Assembly: GCA_017480195.1 (NCBI GenBank) | Contig: JAFVBE010000011.1 | Span: 69,580-130,203, forward strand | Direction of reading: 5' to 3' | Source of the DNA: Lachnospiraceae bacterium | GTDB taxonomy: Bacteria > Bacillota > Clostridia > Lachnospirales > Lachnospiraceae | Length of the DNA stretch: 60,624 bases | Part shown: positions 7,293 through 12,449 of the stretch, piece after piece | Numbering within the stretch: the first letter of the stretch is position 1 | Layout of the letters: each line of letters begins with the position of its first letter | Notes under the pieces: generated by a model | Told to the model about the DNA's origin: nothing | The model's input: only the letters and a program-made list of their open reading frames with translations | Databases searched by the model: none | Made by a program: the position numbers and the translations under genes

Positions 7293-10200
7293 TTATCTTT
7301 TTTTACCCTTCATGTATCTTTTATTTGTATAATACAATGCACTCATACCTGCCGCGGACATTATTGCAAGCATTATAACAAGCATAAGTTCAAATGTATC
7401 TCCTGTCTTAACACCATCATTTGTACCTGTATTATCAGTATTGTTGCTTGGTGTCTCTACTGTCGCAGGGGTAGGGGTAACCGTATCAGTTTTATCTGTA
7501 TCATTATTACCGGTATCTGTATTACCGGTATCTGTATTACCCGTATCAGTCTTGTCCTCATCTTCTTTCATAACGACTGTAAGATTAGTCTTGGCAATAC
7601 CATTTGTAAATACTATCTCTACACTATGCTCACCCTCATCAAGAGTATCTAAGAATGACTTAAGGAAGGTAATAACCGTCGAACCCTTCTTAGCAGTATA
7701 GTTCGAAGGATCAACAACCTTACCATCTATCTTAACCTCTACAAATTTTACGAATGGTCCGTCAGATTTAATGGTGATATTGCTGCTTTCATCCTCAACC
7801 CACTCACTGTCTGCACCTTCTATGATGTGGTACTCAACATCATCTGCAAGCTTATTCAGATAGAAATCATCAAATGCTCCCCATGCACCTGTTGTAAGAC
7901 TGCTAAGACCAATTACTCGGATTCCAACTGTTATCTCTGTATTATCCTCGTCAATCTCTATATCGGACACCTCCGGATTCTGCCATTCAAGCCATCCATT
8001 TAATTTAGCTGTATCTGTCCATTCCTTGTCTCCGACCTTTACAAATAACTCAATGGTGTAATCTCCGTCAGCGCCTCCTCCCTCGACATAGCAGCCTGCT
8101 GTATATACACCAGCATCTACCGTAACTGTCTGATAAAATGTGAAGGTCATAGCATTTCCATCCCAGAAATGATATGCATAATCTCCGGTACGATAGTTTC
8201 CACCCTCGCTCTTGCGCGATATTGCCGAGGCGCTATCACCTTCTGTAATCCACATAGAAGTATCGCTATCCTCAAAGCTTGGGTTAATCAGATAATTCTT
8301 CGGCTTAAGCGTCAGTGTACATATCACATCGTAGCTTACTCCATCATATACAGCCGTGCCATCTATAGGATATTCACCTTCTCCTGAATATATAGCTTCC
8401 TTGATATCCTTCTCAGACCATGTAACCTCTGCTGTGTCAGTCTTACCACTTGCAAACATTACATCTACTGTTTCAGGAAGCTCTATATCCTCATATGTGG
8501 TATCATCATCCAACTCATACTCTGCTTCCGTATCTAATACTCCTATTACAGAGTCCGACGAGGTTGTACCTCCTCGTATCATATTAAATACCTTTAGTGT
8601 ATCAAGTGCCGTTCCATCGAAATCAAATACTGCCTCATTATCTACAGCCGAGCCGCCATACCACTTACCTGCATCCTCATCATAGCCTGCTGAATAGCTT
8701 GATGCCCAGCCCGAGCCATATTTCTCCCAAAGCGCTTTATTCTGCGCTAACACTGTCGCTGCGTCAGAAGCACTCGCATCATATACCTGTACAGGAATCC
8801 ATGCAGGCTCCCAATAGAATACTCCTATACCCTTATTATTAGGGACATTGGCTACAGCCTCAACTACATTCCTTACAGATAATGCCTGACTCTGAAGGCT
8901 TACCGGATAAGGTATTGTGTTACCTGACTTGCCTTCATATACTGTATTGGTATGTCCATCACCATCCTCATAGGTACGTGCATAAGAGGTTTCAGCAACC
9001 ATTACATATTTGCCATATGTCTCTGCAATATTACTTAGTTTTGTAGTAAGATTACCGAGTGTTCCATGCCAGTACGGATAATATGATGTAGCAAATACAT
9101 CATACACAACATCATAATAGTTAAGATTAGCTGCATACGACTCAAATGCACTGCCCTCAGGGTTTGTAAAATGTATTGCAATCATAATCTGTCTGTTATA
9201 AGCTTCTTCTATATTCTGTATACCCGTGCTTCCTGCATTGAAAAGCTTACACATATTCTCCCAGCTTGTTTCTCCGCAGAAGCCATTCGTAGTTTCATTA
9301 CCGACCTGAACCATGCCTACATCTACACCGGCATCAAGCATTGTCTTAAGACTGTCCTCAGTATATGCCTGAAGCGCTGCCGCCTTGTCATCCAAGGTCA
9401 TACTCTGCCATGCCTTAGGTGCGGAATACTTACCAGGGTCTGTCCAGAAATCTGAATAATGGAAATCTACCAGAACTCTCATTCCGGCATTGGAAGCCCA
9501 CTGTCCAATCTTGACTGCGGTTGCAAGGTCACAGGCACCGCCTCCATAGCTATTGTCATTTTCATCGTATGGATCTACCCATGTGCGTATTCTTATGTAA
9601 TTAACACCTGATGACTTAAGCAGGTTGAAGAATTCCTGGTCGCCAAGTACTTTGCCATCAAAGTCTTTAAATGTTGCGCCGCTGTTCCTTATTGAAAGAT
9701 AAGATGACACATCAAAGCCTGTTATAAAGTCATTCATTATAGTAACCTTCTCTACATATAAATCTGACTCGACAGGTGAAGCAGATACAGGCGTCGTATC
9801 AAATGTAAAGGTTCTTGTGTTCTGACTTGCAAGGTATTCATTAGCAGCAGCAAGCGTGGTAAAGGTTTTGCTACCAATGATGTATATCTCTCCACCATCA
9901 TCTACTGATGCAATAGCATCATATGTTGTTGTATCCTCCCACTTAAAGCCATAGGACGCTACAGTCGTCTCAGAGCTGTCATATATTCCAAGTCCTGCAT
10001 TATCATTCTCAGTATCTGATATGATTAATGAGAAGTAATTCCAATTTGATTCAGGAGTATCCTGCTTAAGCTTAGTCAGGCTCTTACCCCAGCCAAACGG
10101 GTCAGCAGTTTCCACATCATCTCCTGCTTTAACTGTGGCCTGGTTATCCCATACTCCCATATAAAGCGGAGCATTACTTCCTGTGTAATAGTAATATACC

Positions 10201-11243
10201 TTTACGGTTTTTGTTTCTTCAGGAGTATTGTCAGCAGGCTTTTCTTTAGTTACCTCTCCGTCTTTTAAGTAATATGTAGTGCTATCGCCGGAGATAAGTT
10301 GTTTATATACATCTGTACTAAATCCATATCCAACTATCCAACCGCTGCTACTCTTAGCATATATGCCAAAGCCTTCATTTTCATTTGTTTTATCAACTAT
10401 TTTAAATTCTGTATAATACCAGTTTTCGTCAGTTTCGTCTTGTGTCAGTGTAGCCTGTTTCTTATTCTCTGTATCAGCATTATCAGCTTTCCACCCAAAA
10501 TCATCAGATGTTGTTGCAGCATCAGTGAATTCTATTCCCTTATGCTTCCAGATATCAATATAAAGTGGTGTGTCAGTTCCAGTATAATAATAGTATAGCT
10601 TAAAGGTTACAGGCTCATCCGGGTCTGTTGGGTCGCTTGAGCCACTGCTCGAGTCAGATTTTTTCTCTAAAACTATGTCGTCTATATCTCCCCAGTAATC
10701 AGCAGGTACATCTCCACTTATTTTAATTTCTACATCAGCAGTTGTTCCCTCTTCAATAGTAAATTCATCAGATTCAAGAGTCGACCATACATCCCATCCT
10801 TCTGATGCTCCAAATGTCTTCCCCGTACTGTCACCATTTACATATAATTTTAATCCTGAGGCAGTTCCCAAAAGACCATCATAAATCAGCTTAACCCTAT
10901 ATGTTCCGGCTTCAACTCCGTTAACAGTCTGATATAATGACAAAGCAGAGGCAGTTGTACCAACATTAGTAAAATGAAAAACCTGTGAAGTATTGTTCTG
11001 TGCTCCATCGCCTATTGTCTTTGTCCATGTTCCATCAAAGTCAGTCCAATTCAATGTATACGACCAACCAGATCTTAAATCACTTGAAAAATCGCCATTA
11101 CTAACTAATGTTGTAGCCTCCCAGGTATCCTCCGCCTTCACATCACCAAAACCACCTAAAAAAGTACTCCCCGGTGTGATTACTGACAGTATGACAGCAA
11201 GTATCATCGCCGTTATCCCTCTGTAAAGTCTTTTTCCTCTCAT
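7293..11243 (-). CDS. Cell-surface arabinogalactan endo-beta-1,4-galactanase (GH53), multimodular
   Basis: The enzyme is expected to cut beta-1,4-galactan of type I arabinogalactan and pectin side chains outside the cell. Counting from the ATG at 11243 (AAGGAGG six bases upstream; 1316 residues): signal peptide about 1-37; a CBM-like beta-sandwich about 45-195; two tandem ~125-residue Tyr/Trp-rich modules about 212-337 and 345-470; GH53 barrel about 503-890 with acid/base Glu650 in VQVGNETT and nucleophile Glu751 in MVAETSYA; a bacterial Ig-like module about 905-983; a second CBM-like beta-sandwich about 984-1135, possibly CBM61; an X2-like module about 1137-1225; a Thr/Asp/Asn linker; and a C-terminal KTGD motif, membrane segment and basic tail, like a variant sortase signal. 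The nearby LacI-type operator suggests induction by sugar. Module names other than GH53 are tentative. Confidence 0.93.
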   Translation of the reverse strand: MRGKRLYRGITAMILAVILSVITPGSTFLGGFGDVKAEDTWEATTLVSNGDFSSDLRSGWSYTLNWTDFDGTWTKTIGDGAQNNTSQVFHFTNVGTTASALSLYQTVNGVEAGTYRVKLIYDGLLGTASGLKLYVNGDSTGKTFGASEGWDVWSTLESDEFTIEEGTTADVEIKISGDVPADYWGDIDDIVLEKKSDSSSGSSDPTDPDEPVTFKLYYYYTGTDTPLYIDIWKHKGIEFTDAATTSDDFGWKADNADTENKKQATLTQDETDENWYYTEFKIVDKTNENEGFGIYAKSSSGWIVGYGFSTDVYKQLISGDSTTYYLKDGEVTKEKPADNTPEETKTVKVYYYYTGSNAPLYMGVWDNQATVKAGDDVETADPFGWGKSLTKLKQDTPESNWNYFSLIISDTENDNAGLGIYDSSETTVASYGFKWEDTTTYDAIASVDDGGEIYIIGSKTFTTLAAANEYLASQNTRTFTFDTTPVSASPVESDLYVEKVTIMNDFITGFDVSSYLSIRNSGATFKDFDGKVLGDQEFFNLLKSSGVNYIRIRTWVDPYDENDNSYGGGACDLATAVKIGQWASNAGMRVLVDFHYSDFWTDPGKYSAPKAWQSMTLDDKAAALQAYTEDSLKTMLDAGVDVGMVQVGNETTNGFCGETSWENMCKLFNAGSTGIQNIEEAYNRQIMIAIHFTNPEGSAFESYAANLNYYDVVYDVFATSYYPYWHGTLGNLTTKLSNIAETYGKYVMVAETSYARTYEDGDGHTNTVYEGKSGNTIPYPVSLQSQALSVRNVVEAVANVPNNKGIGVFYWEPAWIPVQVYDASASDAATVLAQNKALWEKYGSGWASSYSAGYDEDAGKWYGGSAVDNEAVFDFDGTALDTLKVFNMIRGGTTSSDSVIGVLDTEAEYELDDDTTYEDIELPETVDVMFASGKTDTAEVTWSEKDIKEAIYSGEGEYPIDGTAVYDGVSYDVICTLTLKPKNYLINPSFEDSDTSMWITEGDSASAISRKSEGGNYRTGDYAYHFWDGNAMTFTFYQTVTVDAGVYTAGCYVEGGGADGDYTIELFVKVGDKEWTDTAKLNGWLEWQNPEVSDIEIDEDNTEITVGIRVIGLSSLTTGAWGAFDDFYLNKLADDVEYHIIEGADSEWVEDESSNITIKSDGPFVKFVEVKIDGKVVDPSNYTAKKGSTVITFLKSFLDTLDEGEHSVEIVFTNGIAKTNLTVVMKEDEDKTDTGNTDTGNTDTGNNDTDKTDTVTPTPATVETPSNNTDNTGTNDGVKTGDTFELMLVIMLAIMSAAGMSALYYTNKRYMKGKKR
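7486..7555. repeat. 15-bp tandem repeat in the galactanase linker
   Basis: The region coding for the Asp-Thr-Gly-Asn-Thr linker carries near-perfect 15-bp copies (unit TATCTGTATTACCGG on the plus strand), giving the repeated residues DTGNT. Such coding repeats can change copy number and so the length of the wall-spanning linker. Confidence 0.75.
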
Positions 11244-11316
11244 AAATAACCTCCTTACATGCATTTACTTCTACTTTTCCTGTTTTTCATTATTTTCTTC
11301 CGCATCCATTCGGTCT

Positions 11317-11414: not shown

Positions 11415-11499
11415 GTTTGCACAAAAGATATTTTTTTGATTTACATGAAAGGCTTTTTTGATTAATATTAATTATAGAAAATTTTTAAGGGATATAAAA

Positions 11500-11955
11500 A
11501 TGCAGATTATATTACATATAGATACCAAAAAAATTGATACCGATTATGAGCACGCAATTAATGAATACTTCAAGCGTACATCTGCTTTTGCTAATATAAG
11601 TATGAAGCTGTATAAGGATTTTATGAAGCTGTCTCTAAAGGATAATTCTTTCAAATTCGTCGTAGTATCCGGAAAGGCTTCGTTTACCTCGACTGAGTTT
11701 GCGAAGAAAATAACCAATATAGGTCTTAACGGATATTCATGTATTGAATTTATAATTTCCGAAATAAATTTATATGAAGACATCTATACAGACAAGAATA
11801 ATACCAAAGATAAACCACTCGATTTATCCGACGAAAATTATGAAATTTTTAATCTTACAAGTATGAACATAGGTGTCGAGCCGACTGCTACCGCTCTTGC
11901 TGAACAGATTTACAGAGCTTACACAATCAATAATAATATCAACTATCATAAATAA
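11500..11955 (+). CDS. Diverged RlmH paralogue lacking the SAM-binding motif but keeping the RlmH C-terminal tail
   Basis: The 151-residue protein aligns end to end with RlmH (23S rRNA pseudouridine-1915 N3-methyltransferase). AINEYFKRTSAFANISMKLY matches the RlmH segment AIxEYxKRL, SGKASFTSTEFAKKI matches xGKxLSSExFA, and the last residues AEQIYRAYTI ... YHK match EQxYRAFKI ... YHK with identical spacing. It lacks the Gly-Gly-Ser-x-Gly SAM loop (FIISEIN instead of FVIGGSxG), the catalytic-region MTFPHQ is MNIGVEP, and a ~20-residue linker is deleted. I start at the ATG at 11500 because AAGGG lies eight bases upstream; the open frame extends to 11458. It converges on the real rlmH gene, which has the opposite losses. 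Likely a non-catalytic partner subunit; a degrading duplicate is the alternative. Confidence 0.75.
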   Translation: MQIILHIDTKKIDTDYEHAINEYFKRTSAFANISMKLYKDFMKLSLKDNSFKFVVVSGKASFTSTEFAKKITNIGLNGYSCIEFIISEINLYEDIYTDKNNTKDKPLDLSDENYEIFNLTSMNIGVEPTATALAEQIYRAYTINNNINYHK

Positions 11956-11957
11956 TT

Positions 11958-11993
11958 ATAGGAAAGCTTTATATACCGATACTAAGCCTTCCT
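11958..11993. terminator. Bidirectional hairpin between the convergent RlmH-family genes
   Basis: AGGAAAGCTT (11960-11969) pairs with AAGCCTTCCT (11984-11993) in a 10-bp stem with one GU-type pair. It starts a few bases after the RlmH-like stop and overlaps the last codons and TAG of rlmH. U-tracts on both sides are weak, so termination strength is uncertain. Confidence 0.6.
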
Positions 11994-12449
11994 ACATACA
12001 TCTGATATAGCTTCAAGCAGAATAACCCTCATAAGCTGGTGCGGAAATGTCATATTGGAGAAGCTTAATCTATAATCTGCCCTTTTTACAGTCTCATCAG
12101 ATAGCCCTAACGAGCCACCTATAACATATACCACAGAAGTACAATAATTAGAAAATGCCCTATACATAAGTCTATTCATATCTTCATTCGTGGTTGACTT
12201 GCCGTCTATACATAGAGCAATAACATAGTCTTTAGCTTCTATTTTAGACAGCAGCTTCTTTCCCTCGATATTTTTTATTTTCTCAATAACTGTTTCACTC
12301 GCATTCTCCGGTATACTTTCGTCAGGCACTTCTATTATCTCGACCTTATATTTTCCGCATTTTTCTATCTTCCTGCGAAGTTCATTTATTTTGTTTCTTA
12401 GGAATTCTTCTTTTACACTTCCTACTACAAGTATTTTTATCTTATTCAT
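11982..12449 (-). CDS. rlmH: 23S rRNA (pseudouridine-1915-N3)-methyltransferase, atypical short C terminus
   Basis: The 155-residue SPOUT-fold protein has the family N terminus (KIKILVVGSVKEEFL), VEIIEVPDE, the SAM-binding YVIGGSLGLS (residues 108-117) and LSFSNMTFPHQLMRVILLE (His137, Arg141, Glu146). RlmH methylates a pseudouridine in helix 69 of assembled 70S ribosomes. After LLE, typical members end EQxYRAFKIxxGEPYHK; here the end is AISDVCRKA, seven residues shorter, without the Tyr-His-Arg/Lys tail that in the known enzyme reaches into the partner active site. Reading the DNA in other frames does not restore the tail, so no simple frameshift explains it. The convergent neighbour carries exactly this tail. 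Confidence 0.9.
   Translation of the reverse strand: MNKIKILVVGSVKEEFLRNKINELRRKIEKCGKYKVEIIEVPDESIPENASETVIEKIKNIEGKKLLSKIEAKDYVIALCIDGKSTTNEDMNRLMYRAFSNYCTSVVYVIGGSLGLSDETVKRADYRLSFSNMTFPHQLMRVILLEAISDVCRKA

Follow-up and report, generated by a model that had tools for sequence, protein, structure and literature searches.

RlmH (also YbeA or OrfX; PF02590, COG1576), the N3-methyltransferase of pseudouridine 1915 in 23S rRNA, has been described as a homodimer encoded by one gene, and both proteins considered here belong to the same sequence family. In the E. coli enzyme, according to the available text of Koh 2017 (PMC5430550), the active site is composite, the SAM pocket coming from one monomer and the C-terminal tail from the other; mutants of E138, Y152, H153 and R154 are inactive, and a section heading states that all mutants dimerise. 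The same portions of the paper (PMC5430550) place R25, R26, R142 and R154 of the tail-giving monomer on the predicted RNA-binding face, name bight positions 122, 125 and 127 as hydrophobic dimer contacts, and give K42 and R43 as RNA contacts of the SAM side. Almost all enzymes of the SPOUT superfamily are homodimers by the accessible part of PMC9508554, and the excerpt of PMC1829167 goes as far as suggesting a heterodimer for yeast Ygr283c/Ymr310c. A literature search by title and beginning of abstract, with subscription journals mostly outside its coverage, returned nothing on a heterodimeric RlmH or on an island-borne RlmH partner. To our knowledge, no heterodimeric RlmH was known previously.

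The rlmH gene is also a landing site of SCCmec, which leaves it working. In the available sections of PMC6222049 both SCCmec and the Enterococcus cassette chromosome are serine-recombinase islands in the 3' region of rlmH, and no RlmH-partner gene is mentioned there for these cassettes. For the division of labour that we propose below, the nearest parallels lie in other enzymes: by the accessible text of PMC6221367 the catalytic subunit of trypanosome AdoMetDC needs a partner, prozyme, that is not itself the active enzyme, and TRM6-TRM61 is, by the accessible text of PMC5007650, a two-subunit enzyme of which one partner is likewise not itself the active enzyme.

Two RlmH homologues with complementary losses

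In the window (the whole analysed stretch, 60,624 nucleotides of a Lachnospiraceae genome) the half-sites of RlmH lie in two proteins, each without the other's part. A, an RlmH homologue and the putative SAM-binding subunit, is encoded on the minus strand at 11982..12449 (155 aa, ATG start); B, a degenerate RlmH and the putative tail-donating subunit, is encoded on the plus strand at 11500..11955 (151 aa from its ATG), and 26 bases (11956..11981) separate the convergent stop codons. A possible upstream TTG start of B (11458..11499, plus strand) would add 14 residues to give 165 aa, and the ATG at 11500 is preferred because relatives align from it. A purine-rich stretch (AAGGG, GAAGG) stands 8 bases 5' of each start codon. 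Among the same-locus convergent pairs of the window genus, the window included, the two frames overlap in 16 of 29. The pair is adjoined on the minus strand, at 7293-11264, by a gene for a 1323-aa secreted protein which, from its translation, resembles a multi-domain glycoside hydrolase with a C-terminal anchor.

A keeps GGSLG, MTFPHQ and VGxxKE and ends in LLEAISDVCRKA, where ISDVCRKA stands in place of the catalytic tail. B carries AEQIYRAYTINNNINYHK and keeps E22-Y23-x-K25-R26 and E138-Q139-x-Y141-R142...Y152-H153-K154 (E. coli numbering), with the GGS loop and the Pro-His of FPHQ absent. Thus the SAM loop GGxxG and the Pro-His of bight 3 are present in A only, and the full catalytic set E138, R142, Y152, H153, R/K154 in B only; the A of the window retains E138 and is without 142 and 152-154. 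The sequence-only reading had described such a pair, a tail-less protein with the SAM loop and MTFPHQ kept and a whole-length RlmH homologue with the tail kept and the GGS loop and the His-Gln of MTFPHQ lost, and its description held wherever we compared it with the open reading frames and profiles.

The A and B of the window are 15% identical to each other. PF02590 (Pfam cut-off 27) matches A with 126 bits over profile positions 2-141 of 154 and B with 43 bits, above cut-off. Against the NCBIfam RlmH models A scores strongly and B weakly, both under the equivalog cut-offs (best model NF000985: 158.9 bits for A against 172 required, 38.1 for B), and neither alone therefore counts as a complete RlmH. 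Aligned to the B. subtilis and S. aureus structures, A continues as far as residue 148-149 and then stops; in the five inspected A whose profile match crossed the stop codon no vestigial tail was seen 3' of it. A profile of 32 B, that of the window first, matched a profile of 12 complete RlmH in hhalign at 100%, with E 6e-42 and 135 of 136 columns, and the adjacency of two whole-length RlmH homologues is far beyond chance. AlphaFold models from two-row alignments reached pLDDT 49.9 for A and 34.8 for B, too low to inform on the fold.

Co-occurrence of A and B

A third, complete rlmH elsewhere in the genome, which the sequence-only reading had named as evidence against itself, was sought by a six-frame search of the host assembly (2.4 Mb, 63 contigs, 84.7% complete), and only A and B were found. 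In all surveys together, whose genus, order, class and phylum samples overlap and in which every genome is counted once, 59 genomes have A and B, one has A only and three have B only; B together with a complete RlmH was seen in none of the four samples. Such co-occurrence of a tail-less with a GGS-less RlmH is what the same reading had proposed to look for, and it argues for a heterodimer. A tail-less RlmH without its partner, sought in the genus and order samples, was found in one of the 60 genomes that carry a tail-less gene (G161), and no stops or frameshifts lie inside the surveyed B matches.

The window genus (37 genomes including the host) comprises 30 genomes with A and B, five with one complete RlmH and two incomplete assemblies without a match; none of the 37 has the pair and the complete gene together (pair 30 versus complete gene alone 5: Fisher p 3e-6, a value that ignores the kinship of the genomes). 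The order sample (392 genomes) added 18 pair genomes, one with A only (G161) and two with B only (G103, G168), and 30 of its genomes have no RlmH-family match. The class and phylum samples were queried with B only (E up to 1e-9 and 1e-34), the search for A without B covering the genus and order samples. With the B profile, nine more B were found in the class sample (343 genomes), none weaker than E 9e-37, against 2e-35 for the strongest match of complete type; A is present in eight of the nine genomes, and in the ninth, G567, B lies at a contig end. The phylum sample (328 genomes) gave B in three more genomes, each with A. The four unpaired genomes are all drafts, 88-98% complete; G161 is a draft of 260 contigs, and its same-genus relative G181 carries A and B. 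Pair-bearing and complete members coexist within the genera g1, g77 and g122.

As to the complete RlmH of the order sample, the best 150 matches listed all reach position 154, the 17 single-match genomes no stronger than E 9.4e-50 were inspected individually, and 80 more weaker single-match genomes, picked by hand, all reach position 154. Of the loci, L034 is a duplicate of L045 and was dropped, as were L091, which lies at a contig end, and a broken fragment of L102; L097 was excluded from the tree only. An extra B on a 4.4-kb contig of G008 is counted as a B sequence and not as a genome. The lone RlmH of G374 (L114), a highly divergent protein with AGS for GGS from a lineage of the same family, was placed in the complete set. 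Several candidates were rejected: the apparent pairs of G373 and G127 are each a single gene split by contig ends, G163 carries two complete copies plus a fragment at a contig end, the frame of G157 is broken, G167 combines a complete gene with a match of just 25 aa, and the second copy of G062 (L102; 3258-3755, 3 kb from the intact one) has an internal stop. The rlmH at G540:C29:97868-98342 was matched in two parts that overlap and join at profile position 132, the result of a frameshift or an assembly error.

The genes are convergent within 160 bases in 39 of the 59 pair genomes and at 13.6 kb in one; they stand in adjacent tandem, A then B, in five (G489, G714, G658, G550, G865), in tandem 14-15 kb apart in three, and at separate places or contigs in 11. 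Among the last, A and B are 2.3 Mb apart on one contig in G057 and 0.4 Mb in G072, and in G023, counted as separate, both genes are near contig ends and may be adjacent. Since unlinked, tandem and convergent pairs all occur, the pairing of A with B is independent of linkage. That A and B need not be neighbours goes beyond the sequence-only reading, as do the retention of RNA-binding residues by B and its presence in rlmH islands, described below.

Proposed division of labour between the putative subunits

All 63 B keep E22, K25, R26, Q139, R142, I146, Y152, H153 and K154 (E. coli numbering), and 62 keep E138; all 60 A keep G9, G76, G103, G107, S121, T126 and H129, and 59 keep K12 and G104. Because A was recognised by its GG loop and missing tail (the last 10 A also by the PHQ motif) and B by its tail (with E138, Q139, R142 and I146 as further criteria for the last 11 B), independent evidence is limited to the other residues, among them E22, Y23, K25 and R26 in B and G9, K12, G76 and S121 in A, and the rows share descent, so that these counts are not independent events. 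The SAM-side positions of A vary in B (among the 31 B outside the window genus G76 is found in 19 and G103 in 17), and positions 122, 125 and 127 remain mostly hydrophobic there. If A and B correspond to the two monomers of the E. coli type, B should keep residues 25-26 and A need not, and so it is observed: most of the set conserved in B is gone from A, the first 49 of which keep K25 in 15 cases, R26 in 8 and R142 in 10, and of the 49 complete RlmH 48 have K/R25 and all have R26. The B of G658 (L168) has K at position 138 and its partner A has D there, possibly a swap between the subunits, and the loop of the G454 A reads GA instead of GG; these two proteins fall outside our motif regular expressions, were read separately and are included in the totals.

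We hold it very probable that A and B, as its two unlike subunits, together make up an obligately heterodimeric RlmH with one composite active site. A would bind SAM in the knot, by its GG and FPHQ loops, and B, a pseudo-enzyme that would no longer bind SAM, would dock head-to-tail on A like the second E. coli monomer and lay its tail (Y152, H153 and K154, organised by E138-R142) over the SAM of A, providing also the RNA-binding residues K25-R26. The site so composed would N3-methylate pseudouridine 1915 in helix 69 of 23S rRNA, and the second, symmetry-related site would be dead. The dimer, its geometry and its activity are what we infer from comparison of sequences with the described enzyme. 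If true, this would be the first heterodimeric RlmH known to us, in which nature has set apart the half-sites deduced by Koh 2017 from structures and mutants, and its single possible active site would offer a test of whether RlmH needs one or two sites per ribosome.

It may be asked whether A, which has a full SAM pocket, occurs once without B (in G161) and retains E138 in 54 of 59 cases, is a working homodimer that uses other tail residues, B being then a separate ribosome-binding or regulatory protein of RlmH descent. We find this improbable, since Y152, H153 and R154 are each essential in E. coli (by the available text of PMC5430550), the replacement tails of A share no common motif in alignment, and B keeps the catalytic residues and was found in all but one of the 60 genomes in which RlmH lost them.

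Still less probable, in our opinion, is an A-B heterodimer with a changed job, by which another nucleotide would be methylated or the activity regulated by dissociation. Two subunits would permit regulation, and at position 42 all 30 A of the window genus carry S or P, against K in 40 of 49 complete proteins, from which it also follows that the K42/R43 contacts are not a general feature. However, between them A and B retain the catalytic residues assigned to RlmH, and helix 69 of 23S rRNA is identical to the E. coli sequence in 27 of 27 copies found, in seven pair-bearing genomes. No helix 69 copy within 3 mismatches was found in 11 of the 18 genomes searched, including the host and two genomes with complete RlmH, probably due to the absence of rRNA from draft assemblies.

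Both genes are under purifying selection: in gene pairs chosen by hand, dN/dS lay at 0.06-0.16 in the 13 of 14 A comparisons, and at 0.07-0.26 in the 11 of 15 B comparisons, for which dS was measurable. That A and B are decaying relics of a duplicated rlmH, m3-pseudouridine 1915 being lost or on the way to loss, is the least probable reading of all: RlmH may be dispensable, as the 30 order genomes without a family match suggest, and B is very divergent from A, but dN/dS far below 1 for both, B frames without stops, residues invariant over many families, and the retention of A and B together even when unlinked speak against decay.

Islands that cut rlmH and carry B

In three genomes of three families (G401, G622 and G499) A is without only Y-H-K, and rlmH is cut at codons 150-151 by a common sequence, GTGATTTAC(C/T)GAATACATGACTCC. 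The left end of an island sits there directly before Y-H-K, and B lies 14-15 kb further. Two islands are intact, 15.7 kb in G401 and 15.9 kb in G622, with B inside. A large serine recombinase (705 and 704 aa, 92% identical; Pfam domains Resolvase, Recombinase and Zn_ribbon_recom in G401) comes directly after the cut, followed by a type I restriction system, a tyrosine recombinase and, near the far end and on the same strand as A, B; the genes were assigned by Pfam in G401, and in G622 by tblastn for the recombinases and from translations for the restriction genes. Beyond B stands an inverted copy of the left end and then E-P-Y-H-K-stop, the severed tail codons, and when the flanks are joined in silico a complete RlmH frame results in both genomes. 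As B lies whole inside these two islands, its tail is its own. G499 is an eroded copy of the island, with the left junction and B retained and no recombinase following; its right end was not found in the 19.9 kb read, which are partly masked.

Like SCCmec, the islands of G401 and G622 have a large serine recombinase and stand in the last codons of rlmH; the window itself is not such an island. Unlike SCCmec, their insertion removes Y-H-K, and they carry the tail-bearing B and a type I restriction system. SCCmec has a ccrA/ccrB pair; in G401 one serine recombinase of 705 aa is seen. The B of the three islands are 88-93% identical and their A 57-63%, and the A of G401 shares 77% identity with the complete RlmH found in G337, a member of its genus, which indicates that B moved and A is native. 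In these islands B looks like an island-borne spare subunit.

A fixed link between island and B is spoken against by G652 (G652:C1:3347870; L181, L188), where a 99% identical, interrupted serine recombinase belongs to an island inside an ABC-transporter ATPase gene, in which neither B nor a right end was found, and rlmH is intact. The left-end motif was found in 2 of 391 class genomes (G499 and G652), so such islands are rare among these genomes. B was not found as cargo of phages, plasmids or viruses: the 12 plasmid and 20 phage matches to the G401 B are at most 41.3% identical and nearly all of 465-480 bases, as complete RlmH, the annotated ones being named rlmH, and the same query gave no match to viral contigs.

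Origin of the pairs

The B nearest to that of the G401 island are those of the tandem pairs of families f65 and f77 (55-59% identity), followed by f24 (48%), f44 (43%), f4 (40%), f22 (41-31%) and the window genus (36-29%), and the orientation A then B is common to islands and tandem pairs. This order of relatedness and the shared orientation fit an island that erodes to a tandem pair and is later rearranged. The exact left-end motif is absent from the other A/B loci examined.

A tree of 48 A and 49 complete proteins, in which the tail columns were left in and long branches meet, shows six state changes (5-7 in bootstrap), starred branches forcing two; in view of those columns and branches we claim only a separate tail loss of G401, whose A falls together with its genus-mate's complete gene at support 100/99. 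In the B tree, made by a quick method, 38 B lie on one side of a branch with SH-aLRT 98, where long-branch attraction is possible.

On balance we favour a history in which islands insert at rlmH codons 150-151, bring B as a spare part and erode into domesticated pairs, among them that of the window, whose descent from such an island we infer from B relatedness and gene order. A serine-recombinase island would insert into these codons and sever the catalytic Y-H-K tail, and the island-borne B would dimerise with the severed host RlmH and restore the active site in trans; the host would thus pay little for the disruption of a useful gene. After erosion of the island the host would retain A and B as a tandem and then rearranged heterodimer, and the convergent pair of the window would be a domesticated descendant. 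The islands suggest in this way a new payment for an insertion site, a partner protein supplied in trans while the broken gene is not rebuilt, and a path that can be traced from a cargo gene to a subunit on which the host depends.

Two other genes are common to the islands of G401 (L090, 1824-17500) and G622 (L163): one encodes a 369-aa protein without a Pfam match, and the other a conserved protein that combines RNase H and ParB-like domains (by Pfam, in G401).
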